The notes below the pieces were generated by a model, which did not search any database, had not been told where the DNA came from, and saw nothing but the letters and a program-made list of their open reading frames with translations. The translations under genes were made by a program, and so were the position numbers. This document shows positions 12,299-62,376 of a DNA stretch of 64,000 nt, one piece after another (positions within the stretch are counted from its first letter, which is position 1; each line of letters begins with the position of its first letter). The DNA comes from Bacteroidia bacterium (GTDB lineage Bacteria > Bacteroidota > Bacteroidia > Chitinophagales > Chitinophagaceae): contig JAUIBA010000003.1 of NCBI GenBank assembly GCA_030427635.1, forward strand, positions 124,001-188,000, written 5' to 3'.

Positions 12299-13308
12299 TG
12301 CCGCTACTTCAACTAAATAGCGAAATTTCCATTGGCCAGTATACGTTTACCGGCGTACATGAATTACGAATTAGAAAGGGGCTACATGGGTACATGGAAA
12401 TGGCAATCATGCAATTGCCAACTAAGGCTTATGTAATAAAGGGGAGCCGTGTAAGCGAGGAGCAGACAACGGGTACAATCATAACTGAGGGTGATCCGGT
12501 GATCATTAAGCTTGGTTATAACGGTGAGCTGGTAACAGAATTTGAAGGTTTTGTGCGCCGGAGAAACCTTGCGATACCGCTAGAGATAGAATGTGAGGGC
12601 TATGTACGTAAGCTGCGACTGAAGTATATGGATGCTGACCTGACTAAGGGGATAAGCCTGAAGAGCCTGCTGGAAAAAGTGTGTGAGGGTACCGACATAA
12701 GTGTTGATTGTAAAGTAGCATATACAATATATGGTAGAAATCTGGTGAATGCCAGTGGCACTAAAGTGCTGGATGAAATACGGAGAGCCAGCGAAGGCGC
12801 AATTTCCATCTTCTTCATTGAGCCTAAAAAGCTATGGGCGGGGCTAGTATATACCCCTTATCTGGACGGGAAAGCGCCATTTAATCTACCAACAGTCAAG
12901 TATAGATTAGGGTGGAACTGCATAATGGATAATAATCTAAAAGAACGGATACCCATCGAGCAGGTGCAAATAATAATCAACGGCATGCTGGTGACAGGTG
13001 ACAGTGTACGAACATCCAGTGATGAGAAAGTGGCAAAGCGGCGGTTGCAATATCAGCTGAATAACTGGCATGATGAAAGTACACTGAAGGCAATAGCCAA
13101 TGAAAAGCAACGCCAACTGAATTATACGGGATACGAAGGTTATGTAACTGGTTTGTTGCAGCCTTACTGCGCCCCGGGATGGGATGCGTATATAAAAGAT
13201 AGCCGTTACCCTGAACGCGATGGGCTGTACCTGGTAGAAAGTACAGAGGTGCTTTTCGGGATTAACGGTTCCAGAAGAATAGTAGGAATTGGTCCAAAAT
13301 TGTCATAG
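12298..13308 (+). CDS. Baseplate hub protein (Mu Gp44 / gp27-like)
   Basis: The 336-residue product has the hub layout: an N-terminal beta barrel (GQYTFTGVHELRIRKGLHGY), a VIIKLGYNGELVTEFEGFV segment typical of gp27/gpD-type hubs, and a C-terminal VTGLLQPYCAPGWDAYIKDSRYPERDGLYLVESTEV ring part. It would hold the spike encoded next, 2 nt after this gene. The assignment is supported by fold-like sequence patterns and gene order. Confidence 0.8.
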   Translation: MPLLQLNSEISIGQYTFTGVHELRIRKGLHGYMEMAIMQLPTKAYVIKGSRVSEEQTTGTIITEGDPVIIKLGYNGELVTEFEGFVRRRNLAIPLEIECEGYVRKLRLKYMDADLTKGISLKSLLEKVCEGTDISVDCKVAYTIYGRNLVNASGTKVLDEIRRASEGAISIFFIEPKKLWAGLVYTPYLDGKAPFNLPTVKYRLGWNCIMDNNLKERIPIEQVQIIINGMLVTGDSVRTSSDEKVAKRRLQYQLNNWHDESTLKAIANEKQRQLNYTGYEGYVTGLLQPYCAPGWDAYIKDSRYPERDGLYLVESTEVLFGINGSRRIVGIGPKLS

Positions 13309-17716: not shown

Positions 17717-18343
17717 ATGAAAACACCAATGACCTATTATGGTGGCAAACAGAAGTTAGTTTCTACCATCCTTCCGCTCTTTCCTGAGCATGACCTTTAC
17801 ACAGAGCCGTTTGCCGGTGGCGCGGCTCTGTTTTTTGCAAAAGAGCCATCAGATATTGAGGTGCTGAACGACCTGAATGCAGAGCTCATTAACTTCTACA
17901 AGGTGATGCAGCAGGATTTTATAAGCCTGCAAAAGAAAATTAATATCACATTACACAGCCGGAAACAGCATGAAGATGCGAGGGTGATGTTTACGGAGGA
18001 GTACGCCATCCGGCTTCAGAATGTGCAGCTGGAGTGTGCTGATGCGTTATATATTATCAAGAGCAGGGACCATGCCCGGGCATTCCACTATCAAGACCCG
18101 CCATATTATAATAGCGACTGTGGGCATTATGGCGGGTATACAGAACAGCATTTTGAGTCATTATTGCAATTGAATGCTGAAATAAAGGGAAAGTTCCTGC
18201 TGTCGTCATATCCGAGCGATATTCTGACCGAATATGTAAATAGTAATGGCTGGTATCAGAAGTTTATAGAGCAGCGGGTGAGTGTCAACAAGGGGAGTGG
18301 AAAGAAGAAGGTAGAAGTATTGACAGCCAATTATCCGATATAA
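17717..18343 (+). CDS. D12-class adenine DNA methyltransferase, internally deleted
   Basis: The 208-residue product keeps the D12/Dam motifs: MTYYGGKQKL at residues 5-14 (SAM side), EPFAGGAA at 30-37 and the catalytic DPPY at 127-130. Compared with the Bacteroidota phage relatives I know (about 260 residues), about 50 residues are missing between SRKQHEDARVM and FTEEYAIRL (junction near residues 91-92), the region with the helical and target-contacting part. The reading frame is intact. It may be inactive or altered in specificity. Its place at the right end resembles that of Mu mom, which protects phage DNA by modification. Confidence 0.8.
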   Translation: MKTPMTYYGGKQKLVSTILPLFPEHDLYTEPFAGGAALFFAKEPSDIEVLNDLNAELINFYKVMQQDFISLQKKINITLHSRKQHEDARVMFTEEYAIRLQNVQLECADALYIIKSRDHARAFHYQDPPYYNSDCGHYGGYTEQHFESLLQLNAEIKGKFLLSSYPSDILTEYVNSNGWYQKFIEQRVSVNKGSGKKKVEVLTANYPI

Positions 18344-18349
18344 GGGAGT

Positions 18350-18485
18350 AATGTCGCCCGGACTGAACCATCAGATGGTGCGACCCAATACCAACAGCCC
18401 ATGTGGATTTAACCACTGTCCGGGCGGTTTCCTCTATAAATGGAGAAAAACAGGCCGGGATAACCGGCTGTTGGTATTAGGTCGC
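18350..18485 (-). ncRNA. Candidate structured small RNA at prophage right end
   Basis: Two 20-nt arms (18466-18485 and 18380-18399) are complementary; on the minus strand the only non-Watson-Crick pair is a G-U wobble, on the plus strand a C-A mismatch. Further stems are 18418-18426 with 18355-18363 (9 bp, crossing the first stem as a pseudoknot) and local hairpins at 18454-18468, 18403-18416 and 18367-18379. A perfect minus-strand -7 element ends 5 nt before the first arm. The RNA family is not recognised, and no T-run marks its 3' end. Confidence 0.45.
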
Positions 18486-18489
18486 AGGG

Positions 18490-18497
18490 CAAAGATA
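18490..18497 (-). promoter_or_regulatory. -7 element for candidate small RNA
   Basis: The minus strand reads TATCTTTG, a full match to TAnnTTTG. Transcription would start about 5-7 nt on, at 18483-18485, exactly where the long stem begins. No coding sequence is served in this direction before the convergent methylase gene. Confidence 0.5.
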
Positions 18498-18565: not shown

Positions 18566-18601
18566 AGTAAACGGTCTGTATTTTGTTAGTAAACGGTCTG
18601 T
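18566..18601. repeat. Two 14-bp direct repeats, 22-bp period; possible phage end sites
   Basis: AGTAAACGGTCTGT occurs at 18566-18579 and 18588-18601. The 22-bp period equals that of the Mu R1-R2 transposase sites, and the repeats lie just beyond the last phage gene. They may mark the right end of the prophage; the exact junction cannot be fixed without an empty-site comparison. Repressor operators are the alternative. Confidence 0.45.
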
Positions 18602-18667
18602 TTTCGCGTTTATAAATTTTTGTAACCTTTTTGCGCACTTTTCTATACGTGAAAGATATGAATCGAA

Positions 18668-18989: not shown

Positions 18990-19514
18990 ATGAAAAACTT
19001 CTTCAAATCAATCGCAATCGCAACTGTAGCAACTTTCGGTTTCGCAACTGCTTCTCACGCTCAGGCTACTGCTACCGCTTCTGCCTCTGCTAACATCATC
19101 ACTCCTATCTCTATCGTTAAGACGGTAGATATGAACTTCGGTAACGTAGCCGTTTCTGCTACCATCGCTGGTACTGCCGTTCTGGACCCTGCAGGTACAC
19201 GTACCACAGGCGGTGCAGGTGGTGTAACCCTTCCTGCTACTACAGGTACTGTTTCTGCTGCAAGCTTCACAGTTTCTGGTCAGGCTTCTTACACATACGC
19301 TATTACACTTCCTACTTCATGCACTATCTCTGACGGTGCTTCACATAACATGACTGTTGACAACTTTACTTCTGTACCATCTGCTACAGGCACGCTGAGC
19401 GCATCAGGTACTGAAACCCTGAATGTAGGTGCAACCCTCAACGTAGCTGCTGCACAGGCAAGCGGTCTGTACACTAACGCAACTGGTGTTCCTGTAACAG
19501 TTAACTACAACTAA
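18990..19514 (+). CDS. DUF4402 secreted protein, copy 1
   Basis: The 174-residue product has a signal peptide (MKNFFKSIAIATVATFGFAT, cut after SHAQ) and a beta-sandwich DUF4402 domain (KTVDMNFGNVAVSATIAGTAV to VGATLNVAAAQ, ending PVTVNYN). DUF4402 proteins are surface or secreted and resemble pilin/coat-like folds; function is not known. Codon choice (GGT, GCT, AAC, TTC) is strongly biased compared with neighbours, which suggests high expression. It is a near-identical paralog of the gene at 21806. Confidence 0.85.
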   Translation: MKNFFKSIAIATVATFGFATASHAQATATASASANIITPISIVKTVDMNFGNVAVSATIAGTAVLDPAGTRTTGGAGGVTLPATTGTVSAASFTVSGQASYTYAITLPTSCTISDGASHNMTVDNFTSVPSATGTLSASGTETLNVGATLNVAAAQASGLYTNATGVPVTVNYN

Positions 19515-21805: not shown

Positions 21806-22330
21806 ATGAAAAGCATCATCAAATTTTTCGCAATCGCTGCTGTAGCAACTTTCGGTTTTGCAACTGCATCTCATGCTCAGGCTACCGCTACTGCTACTGC
21901 CTCTGCTACTATCATTACTCCCATCACCATTGTTAAGACAGTGGACCTGAATTTTGGTAATGTAGCTGTTTCTGCTACCATCGCAGGTACTGCCGTTCTG
22001 GACCCTGCCGGTACACGTACCACTGGTGGTGCAGGTGGTGTAACCCTTCCTGCTACTACAGGTACTGTATCTGCTGCAAGCTTCACAGTTTCAGGTCAGG
22101 CTTCTTACACTTACGCTATTACACTGCCTGCATCATGCACTATCTCTGATGGTGCTTCACATAACATGACTGTTGACAACTTCACCAGTTCTCCATCATC
22201 TACCGGCACACTGAGCGCTTCAGGTACTGAAACTCTGAACGTAGGTGCAACGCTGAACGTAGCTGCTGCACAGGCTGCTGGTCTGTACACAAATGCAACT
22301 GGTGTTCCTGTAACAGTGAACTATAATTAG
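21806..22330 (+). CDS. DUF4402 secreted protein, copy 2
   Basis: The 174-residue product differs from copy 1 at few positions, mostly conservative and in the signal peptide (MKSIIKFFAIAAVATFGFAT). It has the same DUF4402 domain and the same VTVNYN end. Synonymous differences are spread through the gene, so the duplication is not from the most recent past or is under strong protein-level selection. The flanking repeats AGTAGATAGT/AGTAGATGGTAGATAGT after the stop are also shared with copy 1. Confidence 0.85.
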   Translation: MKSIIKFFAIAAVATFGFATASHAQATATATASATIITPITIVKTVDLNFGNVAVSATIAGTAVLDPAGTRTTGGAGGVTLPATTGTVSAASFTVSGQASYTYAITLPASCTISDGASHNMTVDNFTSSPSSTGTLSASGTETLNVGATLNVAAAQAAGLYTNATGVPVTVNYN

Positions 22331-33055: not shown

Positions 33056-33132
33056 AGCGGTGCAATATACTATCAATTAACGGTCTTTATTGGCTATCTT
33101 CTATTACTTTTACTGTTCAAAATCATTATCAA

Positions 33133-40142: not shown

Positions 40143-43100
40143 ATGAATAAGTTCATAAAATCCATTATTTCGTTCTCGCTCAGGAACAGGTTCTTTACCT
40201 TTTTCTGGGTTATACTGCTGGTTATAGCAGGTATATTCAGTTATATCAATATTCCACTGGAGGCTTTTCCCGATGTTACCAATACGCAGATAATTATTGT
40301 TACCGAGTGGAAGGGGCGTAGTGCCGAGGAGGTGGAGCGCTTTGTAACCACTCCGGTGGAGATAGCCATGAATGCCGTACAGCGCAAAACCAATGTACGC
40401 TCCATTACCATGTTTGGGCTGTCTGTTATCAAGATTATTTTTGATGATGATGTAGATGATTTCTTTGCACGGCAGCAGGTCAATAATCAGCTGCGCAATG
40501 TGTCGTTGCCAGATGATGTGCGGCCCGATGTGCAGCCGCCATATGGTCCCACCGGCGAGATATTCCGATACACGTTGCAGAGCAAAAGCCGGGATACGCG
40601 CGATTTGCTTACGCTGCAGAACTGGGTCATTGACCGTCAGCTGCGTGCAGTCCCCGGTGTGGCTGATGTTGTGGCTTTTGGTGGGCAGGAAAAAATATAT
40701 GAGATCAATGTAGACCCGGTGAGACTGCAAAAGTATGGGCTCACTCCGGCAGAGGTATTTGATGCCGTATCAAAAAGCAATCTGAATGTAGGTGGCGATA
40801 TCATAGAAAAGAATGGGCAGGCTTATGTGGTGCGTGGCATAGGGCTGCTCAACTCTGAAGATGATATCCGCAATACTATTATTACCAGCTATAATGGTAA
40901 TCCCGTTTTGGTAAATAATGTAGCATCAGTAACTGTAGGCAGTGCGCCACGTGTAGGGCAGGCAGGGCTGAATGGGAATGATGATGTAGTAGAAGGGATA
41001 GTGGTAATGCGTAAGGGGGAAAACCCTGCCGATGTACTGGCAAGATTGAAGGATAAGGTAGCAGAGCTGAATGAGCATACACTACCTGCCGATGTGAAAA
41101 TGGTGACATTCTATGATCGGGACAACCTTATACAGTTCTGTACAAAAACGGTGTTGCATAACTTGCTGGAAGGCATTATTCTGGTTACGGTAATAGTGTT
41201 CCTTTTCATGGCCGACTGGCGCACTACAGTTATTGTTTCCGTCATCATACCACTGGCTTTACTTTTTGCATTCTTTTGCCTGCGGCTCAAAGGAATGAGT
41301 GTGAATCTGCTCTCACTGGGGGCCGTGGACTTTGGCATTATCATAGATGGTGCAGTGGTAATGGTAGAGGGGCTATTTGTAGCGCTGGACCATATGGCCC
41401 ATAAAAACGGGATGGAGCGGTTCAATAAGCTGTCTAAGCTGGGATTGATAAAAAAGGCCGGTGGAGAAATGGGAAAGGCTGTGTTCTTTTCCAAGCTTAT
41501 TATTATTACTGCGTTGCTACCCATATTCTCTTTTCAGAAGGTAGAGGGCAAGATGTTTGCACCATTGGCATGGACATTGGGTTTTGCACTGCTTGGGGCT
41601 TTACTTTTTACGCTCACGCTGGTACCTCTGCTGTGTTCATTGCTGCTGCGCAGAAATGTAAAAGAGAAGCACAATGGTTTCGTACGCTTTATCAATAAGA
41701 TAGTGGAAAGTGGTTTCCGGTTCACATTTGCACATAAGAAGGCGAGTGTGGGAGCAGCAGTATTGTTACTGGCAGGTACATTGTTTTCTGCCCGGTGGCT
41801 GGGTACAGAGTTTCTGCCACCGCTTAATGAGGGGGCACTGTGGGTAGAAGCAAAGCTACCCATGAGCAACTCGCTGACAGAAACAGTGAAGATGGTAAGT
41901 ACATTACGTACAGAGTTGATGACCTTCCCTGAGGTGAATGGCGTGCTAAGCCAAACGGGGCGCTCTAATGACGGGACAGACCCAAGTGGCTTTTATTATG
42001 TACAGATGCAGGTAAATCTTAAACCCAAAGATGAATGGAAACGGCATATAACTATGGATGGTCTGGTGGAGGAAATGGATAAGCGGCTGAAAAACTATCA
42101 GGGTATTGTATACAATTATTCCCAGCCTATTATAGATAATGTGGCTGAAGCAGTAGCTGGCATCAATGCATCGAACGCGGTGAAGATATATGGCGATGAC
42201 CTGGAGGTACTGGACAGGATAGCCAACAGTGTCATAGAACAGATAAAAGATGTACCAGGTATAAAGGATGTAGGAATACTACGTAATATAGGACAGCCTG
42301 AGATAAGTGTACTGTTGGATGAGGAAAAAATGGCCATATACGGCATTACCAAGGCCGATGCACAGGCCGTTATAGAAATGGCCATAGGCGGTAAGACAGC
42401 TACAGAAAAGTATGAGGGAGAGCGGAAGTTTGATGTTCGTATCCGTTATCCTAAAGATTACCGCAAGGATGAGCAGGATATTGGTAACCTTATGGTACCT
42501 ACCATAAGAGGGGAGAAGGTGCCATTAAGGGAAATCTGTACTATTCATAAAGTAACGGGGCCAGCCTTTATATACCGTGATAATACCAAACGCTTCATTG
42601 GTGTAAAGTTCTCTATCAGGGAGCGCGATTTGGGAAGTACTATAGCCGATGCGCAGGCGCGTGTGCAGCGGACAGTAAAAATGCCTGCCGGCTACAGCAT
42701 TGGCTGGACAGGGGAGTTTGAAAATCAGGTACGTGCTACCAAAAGACTGGGGCAGGTAGTGCCGGTAAGTCTGGTTATGATATTCGTGCTGCTGTTTATT
42801 ATGTTTGGCAATGTGAAAGATGCGGCGCTGGTATTGGTTAATGTTCCTTTTGCACTCATAGGAGGTATACTGGCACTGGAGTTTACGGGCATCAACTTCG
42901 GTATATCTGCCGGGGTAGGCTTTATTGCTCTGTTTGGTATCTGTGTTCAGAATGGGGTCATCCTCATTTCTGAGTTTGCAGGTGGCTTACGCAGGAGGTT
43001 ATCACTGGAGGAGGCTATTCTTACAGCAGTAAAGGTGCGTACCCGCCCTGTGGTAATGACTGCTATGATGGCAATGCTGGGCCTTTTCCCGGCCGCACTA

Positions 43101-61860: not shown

Positions 61861-62376
61861 TTAATATGTACTTATTGATACTTCGTCGGGTACTATCATT
61901 GATGGGCTAAACATAGAGTTAGCCTCCCGCAGCATACCTTCTGCATCATTTCTGTTGCGGTAGTTACCCACTCTTACTCTGAAACTGGGAGCCTGGTATA
62001 TGAGATATGCCCGTACCCCGGGGTTGTGTCTCATAAATTCAGCTTTCACTTTCATCGCTTTTGCTCTGTCAGGGCCATAATATATCTGTACCCGGTATCC
62101 ACGGCCGTTAAATACGGTTTTTATATCCCTGTGTACTACTCCGGCATTGCTGGTATAGCTGTCAGGGCCCGATGCCGGCGGTGGTGTTAATGGTGGCGGT
62201 GGTGTTTTTACCGGCTCTGGTCTTGTGAGGCGTACATAGGTATGATATTTACGTACCAGCACTGCCAGTCGGGGGTCAGTATGTATCTGTACATCGCCGG
62301 TATTGCTGTCCTGAGCCCTTGCATTGAGGTGCAGGCATACTGCTATTGTTATGTATATAAGTTTTCCCGGCTTCAC
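61861..62376 (-). CDS. Secreted SPOR-domain protein
   Basis: The 171-residue product starts at GTG (MKPGKLIYITIAVCLHLNARA), with a signal peptide, a Pro-rich linker (KTPPPPLTPPPASGP) and a C-terminal SPOR domain (about 92-170: YRVQIYYGPDRAKAMKVKAE, FRVRVGNYRNRNDAEGMLRE). SPOR domains bind denuded glycan strands at division sites. The GTG start is supported by a -7 element whose last base is 7 nt upstream. Confidence 0.8.
   Translation of the reverse strand: MKPGKLIYITIAVCLHLNARAQDSNTGDVQIHTDPRLAVLVRKYHTYVRLTRPEPVKTPPPPLTPPPASGPDSYTSNAGVVHRDIKTVFNGRGYRVQIYYGPDRAKAMKVKAEFMRHNPGVRAYLIYQAPSFRVRVGNYRNRNDAEGMLREANSMFSPSMIVPDEVSISTY

Follow-up and report, generated by a model that had tools for sequence, protein, structure and literature searches.

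An RNA-like element between a methylase gene and a putative prophage end

The window analysed here, the whole 64-kb stretch of DNA, lies on contig C37, in a genome of 4.25 Mb. At positions 17717 to 18343 of its forward strand lies a gene for a D12-class N6-adenine DNA methyltransferase of 208 amino acids (PF02086, 3.3e-21), which is about 51 residues shorter through an internal gap; the residues concerned are present in all five aligned homologs. Farther right, two direct repeats (AGTAAACGGTCTGT, 18566 to 18604, forward strand), putative transposase sites by the role inferred for them at a prophage right end, are followed by what appears by eye to be the right terminus of a Mu-like prophage (CGCGTTTATA, 18605 to 18614, forward strand). 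Its left end was placed near contig position 107440, beyond the window, AATT adjoins both ends (by eye), and the Mu-like prophage would span contig positions ~107440 to 142614. An HTH/S24 repressor gene is found at the left of the prophage, and transposase A- and B-like genes were named by position only. The early region (contig ~114043 to 116561, or 4043 to 6561 of locus L009) contains a diversity-generating retroelement (DGR), in which a reverse transcriptase (PF00078, 1.9e-17) is accompanied by a template repeat of 67 nt and by three genes in tandem whose matching variable repeats, by eye, deviate from the template mostly at template A positions. Five near-identical 174-amino-acid proteins, secreted-looking by eye, are encoded on both sides of the prophage (window 18990 to 19514 and 21806 to 22330; contig 97750, 103503 and 106618), as if it had inserted within a dispersed cluster of paralogs.

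Between the methylase stop codon and the putative prophage right end lies a predicted RNA gene on the reverse strand (18345 to 18486), recognised from the sequence and from a match to model R2, described below (18497 to 18345, minus strand, 113.6 bits, E 2.8e-21). The positions that an earlier note on this DNA had given for the two 20-nt arms, for the 9-bp stem that crosses them and for the promoter-like octamer proved exact. Read along the minus strand, the octamer TATCTTTG (18490 to 18497), which we take to be a Bacteroidota-type -7 promoter element (consensus TAnnTTTG), ends 5 nt before the first arm of the long helix P1, whose 5' arm (18466 to 18485) and 3' arm (18380 to 18399) rest on both sequence and covariation. 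P1 comprises 20 bp, 19 of them Watson-Crick and one G-U, which reads C-A on the plus strand and is, as had been stated, the sole non-canonical pair of the long stem; a repeat finder lengthens the arms to 21 nt. The three local hairpins that had been claimed were read by eye, with support from covariation, as hairpin A (CAG.CCGG/CCGG.CUG, 18451 to 18470), whose first bases could prolong P1 instead, hairpin B with the loop AUUUAUA (18428 to 18449) and hairpin C (18403 to 18416). The 5' strand of the pseudoknot helix (CGCCCGGAC, 18418 to 18426) was assigned by pairing and covariation. A linker (18364 to 18379), with a small additional hairpin (18379 to 18367) that by eye is not evident in most printed homolog sequences, leads from the 3' arm of P1 to the 3' strand of the pseudoknot helix (GUCCGGGCG, 18355 to 18363, assigned by pairing). 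All nine pairs between 18355-18363 and 18418-18426 can form, in crossing order relative to P1.

The 5' end of the RNA would fall at 18483 to 18486, and the 3' end is uncertain; the window copy has no U-run after 18355. The earlier note had offered an antisense relation to the 3' region of the methylase gene as one possible role. This is literally true of the arrangement, but the crossing strand starts 12 nt past the stop codon (18343 to 18355) and the methylase gene would therefore be overlapped at most by the 3' tail of the RNA. Since the window copy lacks a U-run and its methylase lacks about 51 residues, the prophage may be decaying.

We scanned the window for inverted repeats of at least 16 bp with a span of 60 to 150 nt, G-U pairs being allowed. 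The minus reading contains a single one, which carries the crossing 9-bp stem, the plus reading contains none because of the C-A in P1, and none was found in 20 dinucleotide shuffles of the window, one strand each. RNA folding energies (z of -6.0 for the minus and -5.7 for the plus strand) are so alike that energy alone cannot choose the strand.

Consistent with the earlier note, whose author had recognised no family in the element, Rfam 15 gave no match in the window at gathering scores and no family match in homologs: for the element at E<=10 only MIR5635 (21.6 bits, gathering 149) and LhrC (20.3 bits, gathering 110) were returned, for nine homolog loci nothing at E<=0.1, for the copy in phage TCUEAP3 (see below) only MIR1862 on the opposite strand (22.2 bits, gathering 84), and for the hankyphage and phage007a records only RT-3 and tRNA, both elsewhere. 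One likeness to a known RNA, that to the core of bacterial RNase P, was considered as an explanation. RNase P RNA (RF00010) has a conserved GAGGAAA before P4 and crossing long-range helices P2 and P4; the window RNA has crossing long-range helices likewise and, together with its near relatives, a GAGGAAA stretch before the long-range helix (host RNase P, GAGGAAAGUCCGGACAG; window RNA, GAGGAAACCGCCCGGACAG). However, this stretch is GGAGAAA in L005, AAGGAAA in L112 and unseen in most of the printed homolog sequences, and no RNase P was among the Rfam results for the window and nine loci. A mimic of the RNase P core was thus rejected and is, in our judgement, extremely improbable.

Homologs, covariation and the choice of strand

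A 156-base query against 294 genomes of the family returned four non-self matches, of which three (L003, L004 and L005) are true relatives with TATATTTG and four bases ahead of P1, and the fourth (L006) was rejected by eye as a single arm-like stretch. Just upstream of the RNA promoter, L003 and L004 have a symmetric terminator-like hairpin (GGGCTTTAAAC..GTTTAAAGCCC), which perhaps keeps outside transcription from entering the RNA gene. When the window, L003 and L004 are aligned, both-sided changes occur in 12 of 43 pairs, eight of them within P1, and 96.9% of cells are paired, compared to 28-49% in slid registers. Model R1, made from the window and these two nearest relatives, found one non-self match in 396 genomes of the order (L021), in which the crossing stem GCCCCGAC/GUCGGGGU replaces GCCCGGAC/GUCCGGGC; its only match in 395 genomes of the phylum (L022) has no crossing stem and was rejected by eye. 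Further loci were fetched with an alignment of six methylases (80 of 508 viral and 80 of at least 561 genome relatives, among the matches listed), and at E<=0.02 R1 matched opposite to the methylase in 17 of the 80 viral loci and, with 11 matches, in 10 of the 80 genome loci. Viral contigs searched with the window methylase alone gave no match, and a DNA similarity search in phages gave only a 33-nt match in Bacillus phage G.

The alignment A7 contains 24 homologs. They come from the 26 matches available besides L103 and L104, L044 (a duplicate of L041) and L080 being left out, and the window and its two nearest relatives are not among them. Both-sided changes are found in 36 of its 43 pairs, 93.9% of cells pair (31-44% in slid registers), and the covariation score is 0.507 compared to 0.138 (sd 0.011) in shuffled and 0.04-0.07 in slid alignments. 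Homologs that alter the stem without compensating changes had been named in the earlier note as evidence that would speak against the RNA; the search of related prophages with the minus-strand structure instead yielded homologs in which both helices covary, with both-sided changes in 11 of 11 pairs of the main P1 helix (99.2% of cells paired) and five of nine pairs of the crossing helix (96.2%). As A7 was fitted to R1, a model that contains P1 and not the crossing stem, the counts for P1 lean towards structure. Hairpins A, B and C show both-sided changes in five of seven, six of seven and five of five pairs, respectively, with gaps at hairpin A in 8-12 and at hairpin B (84.8% of cells paired) in 6-14 of the 24 sequences.

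Model R2, built from the 24 sequences of A7, revealed a second subtype located directly upstream of the methylase gene and also antisense to it, and at L105 one copy of the RNA lies on each side of the methylase; across 296 genomes of the phylum, R2 listed a match only in the genome of the window itself. When 37 upstream-type RNAs were aligned by sequence alone (alignment A8, its members picked by a descriptor that demands both helices), the crossing helix displayed both-sided changes in eight of ten pairs, 95.3% paired cells (41-51% in slid registers) and 56 both-sided cells compared to 15.3 in shuffles. P1 and the crossing helix, both backed by compensatory changes, together make up an H-type pseudoknot. 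Several loci hold the same or nearly the same element (L005/L007/L027, L003/L103/L010, L004/L104, L021/L112, L041/L044, L028/L109, L056/L116, L070/L121, L083/L086, L094/L096 and L102/L139). A divergent member at L080 (5767 to 5926) has a crossing helix of 14 bp (AGGGAACCGGGAAA/TTTCCCGGTTCCCT). The loop of hairpin C reads UUCGG in eight copies by eye, and UUCGG occurs in 11 of 80 copies; a short GRCWU element is present in 45 of 80 copies (16.3 expected), and support is weak for a strand-exchange hairpin that might form at the 5' strand of the crossing helix (19 of 86 compared to 9.1% in controls).

The earlier note had chosen the minus strand as the RNA, and the non-Watson-Crick cells of P1 support that choice. 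Among 710 cells in 43 sequences, whose P1 arms were located with scoring equal for both strands, there are 20 G-U, one C-A and ten other such cells (one-sided binomial 1e-5, kinship ignored, in a set of related sequences most of which were first found by a minus-strand model). Because G-U exceeds C-A by 20:1, the minus-strand RNA is most likely the folded molecule under selection. At the place of the promoter, TATATTTG is the commonest octamer in 43 sequences (22) and TATCTTTG the second (4), three of the 43 rows being cut three bases off register, and this recurrence favours the earlier proposal that the RNA has a promoter of its own, for which the octamer is the candidate.

Recurrence beside phage modification genes

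To count the element by its form, a first descriptor (promoter, P1 of at least 10 and crossing helix of at least 7) was applied; it matched 32 of the 132 regions that follow the methylase gene and none of 131 control regions within that gene. A strict descriptor (P1 of at least 12 bp, crossing helix of at least 8 bp with at least five G-C pairs, then at least four T), run over both strands of 160 loci (1.45 Mb), matched in 78 of them, in every case on the strand opposite to the methylase and no more than ~700 nt from it, so that the place beside the methylase noted in the window recurs in homologs. These 80 matches represent 78 RNAs, as two promoters were counted twice (L077 and L091), and one dinucleotide shuffle per locus gave four matches. 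Many of the copies are sited upstream of the methylase. Copies missed by the strict descriptor were found by the models or the first descriptor in L104, L106, L112, L027, L058, L081 and L167 and downstream in L105; a version that demands at least five T leaves the window's own RNA unlisted and adds matches that look like chance, at window positions 62034 and 33045 and in L206-L208, L009 and L015. With a relaxed descriptor, the upstream flank of the methylase gave matches in 68 of 160 cases and the downstream flank in 33 of 132 (100 of 160 loci overall), compared to 6.2% and 4.8% of shuffled flanks, and the sense strand gave 10 and 12 matches. The remaining 60 of 160 loci have nothing beside the methylase by this descriptor, several of these contigs ending there, and in seven of them (L027, L104, L106, L112, L143, L155 and L167) other model or descriptor searches do find the RNA.

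These counts bear on a reading of the element at the DNA level, as an inverted repeat, read on both strands, at which late transcription would stop short of the right end. It would fit the convergent position past the methylase in the window and the U-rich tails of 50 of 80 copies (at least six T within 12 nt after the crossing 3' strand, the window copy not among them), a figure that owes something to selection since most copies had been chosen with at least four T. The strand bias of 20:1, the kept promoter, the covarying crossing helix and the many copies upstream of the methylase argue against such a terminator, which we regard as improbable.

As the loci above were fetched through the methylase, searches without this anchor were also considered. 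They led us to keep three of four non-self matches in the 294 genomes, the one in the 396 genomes, 13 of 13 viral contigs and one of three in the 395 genomes, and all homologs kept adjoin a D12-methylase-like gene with the exception of L005/L007, where it is 1.4 kb off. In L007 (470 to 1739), the stretch between the RNA and the D12-like methylase contains, by eye, a small ORF for a Cys-rich, secreted-looking product and a gene resembling cytosine methylases. The viral contigs were found by a pattern of promoter and crossing stem; ten were already in the anchored set and three (L185-L187) are new. The match kept from the 395 genomes (L209) lies ahead of a methylase-like gene, by tail-completion-like genes (by eye). 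The pair of RNA and methylase is found together in another setting in L185, L186 and L209. Position or inspection by eye gave the names used here for the transposases, for the tail completion genes and for the L185-L187 and L209 methylases. L210 was rejected by eye as a plain terminator and L195 lacks the fold of the family; L211, which has a crossing stem without a long P1, is doubtful as a member.

A packaging or virion RNA comparable to the pRNA of phi29 would be in keeping with the phage-borne state of the element and with its position, which in the window and several relatives is close to the end of the phage. It is difficult to reconcile with the mid-contig pairs of L185 and L186 (17872 of 39043 and 18399 of 38182, contig ends that may not be phage ends) and with the 60 loci in which the relaxed descriptor found no match, and we consider it very improbable.

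Among 36 phage records with a related transposase, four were read. All of them contain a copy close to the right end of the record, and it appears to be unannotated there. Hankyphage p00 (BK010646.1) is matched by R2 at 40693 to 40547 on the minus strand (42.9 bits, E 2.7e-6), ~1 kb before an N6 methyltransferase gene and with a thymidylate synthase gene in between, and Porphyromonas phage007a_Bg4 is matched weakly at 33071 to 32936 (minus strand, 26.5 bits, E 0.009), where no methylase is annotated and the RNA overlaps a small annotated ORF in part. Model R3, which includes the hankyphage copy and excludes those of phage007a, TCUEAP3 and Peternella_1, gives matches in phage007a (48.1 bits, E 2.4e-7), in Elizabethkingia phage TCUEAP3, where the copy lies directly upstream of a gene annotated as mom (61.6 bits, E 3.3e-10), and in Winogradskyella phage Peternella_1, where it lies directly upstream of a methyltransferase gene (29.0 bits, E 0.0024); R3 does not find the window's own RNA. 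The TCUEAP3 copy and the methylase-side copy of Peternella_1 rest on R3 and the descriptor and were not found by R2 at E<=1. Peternella_1 (L018) may have a second copy at 12500 to 12652 (plus strand), flanked by gp23 and the KilA-N gene gp24 and oriented like its neighbours (27.6 bits with R2; E 5e-4 in the whole-record search), and among 47 whole records, nine of which were matched by R2, this copy is the only one away from a modification gene. The carriers are transposable phages of Porphyromonas and of gut Bacteroides (hankyphage) and, by record title, phages or prophages of Flavobacteria, Chitinophagaceae and Sphingobacteria.

Both the window prophage and hankyphage encode a reverse transcriptase, and the RNA could on that account be a template of the retron or DGR kind. 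Each of the two enzymes, however, has a template of its own, that of the prophage serving a DGR with three variable repeats and that of hankyphage annotated elsewhere, where Rfam finds RT-3, and the RNA-bearing loci L015-L017 and L018 hold no relative of the prophage enzyme at E<=1e-3. On this search, which covered relatives of the one prophage enzyme, a partnership with a reverse transcriptase was dropped, its probability being judged close to negligible.

A methylase tree was drawn up with 84 tips, namely Peternella, hankyphage, the window and 81 of the 160 loci, most of these chosen because they carry the RNA. On it the RNA changes sides at least 10 times compared to a mean of 26.7 in shuffles, two tips without the RNA being scored as upstream. 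Judged from these sequences, the RNA appears to swap sides rarely but repeatedly while staying adjacent to the methylase. The stretch of mRNA with which it could pair is therefore not conserved.

A candidate role and known systems compared

We are highly confident that the element represents a real RNA family. The best explanation of the locus is an autonomous small RNA gene of the Mu-like prophage, predicted at 18355 to 18486 on the minus strand, and comparative sequence evidence supports its strand, P1, its crossing helix, its kept promoter and its recurrent antisense place beside a modification gene. What the RNA does can be read in two ways.

The first reading is that of a cis-encoded counter-transcript, which would pair with the late polycistronic mRNA at the modification gene and, by cleavage or block, prevent DNA modification in the lysogen. 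Its strongest fact is the strict antisense orientation, which this role predicts better than trans action does: all strict matches, in 78 of the 160 loci, are opposite to the methylase and so have the position of a cis-encoded antisense RNA, with a promoter-like site as the presumed start. As late mRNA that runs past the methylase crosses the element in the opposite direction, it would be, by position, the full complement of the RNA; arm sequences drift and structure stays, as expected if target and RNA share the same DNA, and the TCUEAP3 site adjoins Mom, a modification gene annotated as another kind. Against this role, the RNA either heads away from the methylase gene or ends close to the stop codon of that gene, leaving start site and coding region uncovered, and it changes sides; a covarying pseudoknot with capped loops offers poor kissing sites, and the G-U strand bias means that the RNA's own fold is selected. 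Moreover, L007 has a gene on the strand of the RNA in between, and the weak copy at 12500 in Peternella runs in the direction of its neighbours. On our weighing, a counter-transcript is the main rival and less likely than not.

The second reading, which we rank above the counter-transcript because the RNA's own fold is selected, its loop strand is locked and the facing mRNA is not conserved, is a stable, trans-acting small RNA expressed in the lysogen as part of a phage modification module; we give it an even chance. The UUCGG loop that hairpin C has in some copies also counts in favour of action in trans. Against this reading stand the strict antisense orientation, the 60 loci with no relaxed match beside the methylase, the missing U-run of the window copy, the phage007a record with no annotated methylase and the distance of ~1 kb in hankyphage. 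The promoter would be read by the host housekeeping sigma factor in the lysogen, P1 would seal the 5' end, and the crossing strand would close the 3' end and could in many relatives form a terminator stem. With its 5' end in P1 and its 3' end in the crossing helix, the RNA would be stable and, in many relatives, self-terminating, the product being a compact molecule of ~100-140 nt. This product would most likely act in trans, with a protein or RNA of the host or the phage as its binding partner. It would be the RNA component of a module for modification/anti-defence or for lysogeny, and when late genes are switched on, the complementary late mRNA would titrate it. Taken as a whole, the picture of an undescribed RNA class of Bacteroidota transposable phages, made in the lysogen as the pseudoknot-sealed partner of a modification locus (D12 methylase or Mom), silenced by its own complementary late transcript and acting in trans as an anti-defence or lysogeny factor, is one that we put forward tentatively.

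A structured RNA gene of this kind provides a defined, testable RNA in phages with poorly known lysogeny control, and one that is linked to phage DNA-modification loci. No title or abstract opening listed by searches of an open-access library, which takes in few subscription journals, describes it. The novelty lies in the RNA class; phage small RNAs as such are old. Stranded RNA-seq of a hankyphage lysogen (jmh43, reads E-MTAB-14274) has been published (PMC12135933), and such data could test the predicted transcript directly.

Several known systems share single features with the RNA. HDV-like ribozymes form a nested double pseudoknot and cleave 5' of P1; the crossing order is alike and P1 lies at the presumed 5' end here, and the RNA has no Rfam match. 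Lambda OOP and P22 sar are phage counter-transcript small RNAs, to which the RNA would be similar in short length, own promoter, orientation antisense to a phage operon and termination. Those are known as RNAs of single phages; the family described here is widespread, has a covarying pseudoknot and hardly overlaps any gene. GOLLD and ROOL are phage-associated structured RNA classes without known function (PMC12286853). The present RNA is likewise a structured non-coding RNA found by comparison. It differs from them in being ~120 nt long, compared to several hundred nucleotides for GOLLD and ROOL, in having no Rfam match and in being paired with a modification gene. Finally, we know of no such RNA at the mom locus of phage Mu, which lies at the phage right end under the control of Com and Dam, but the setting is alike: a right-end DNA-modification gene likewise, and in TCUEAP3 this gene is annotated as Mom, with the RNA directly upstream.
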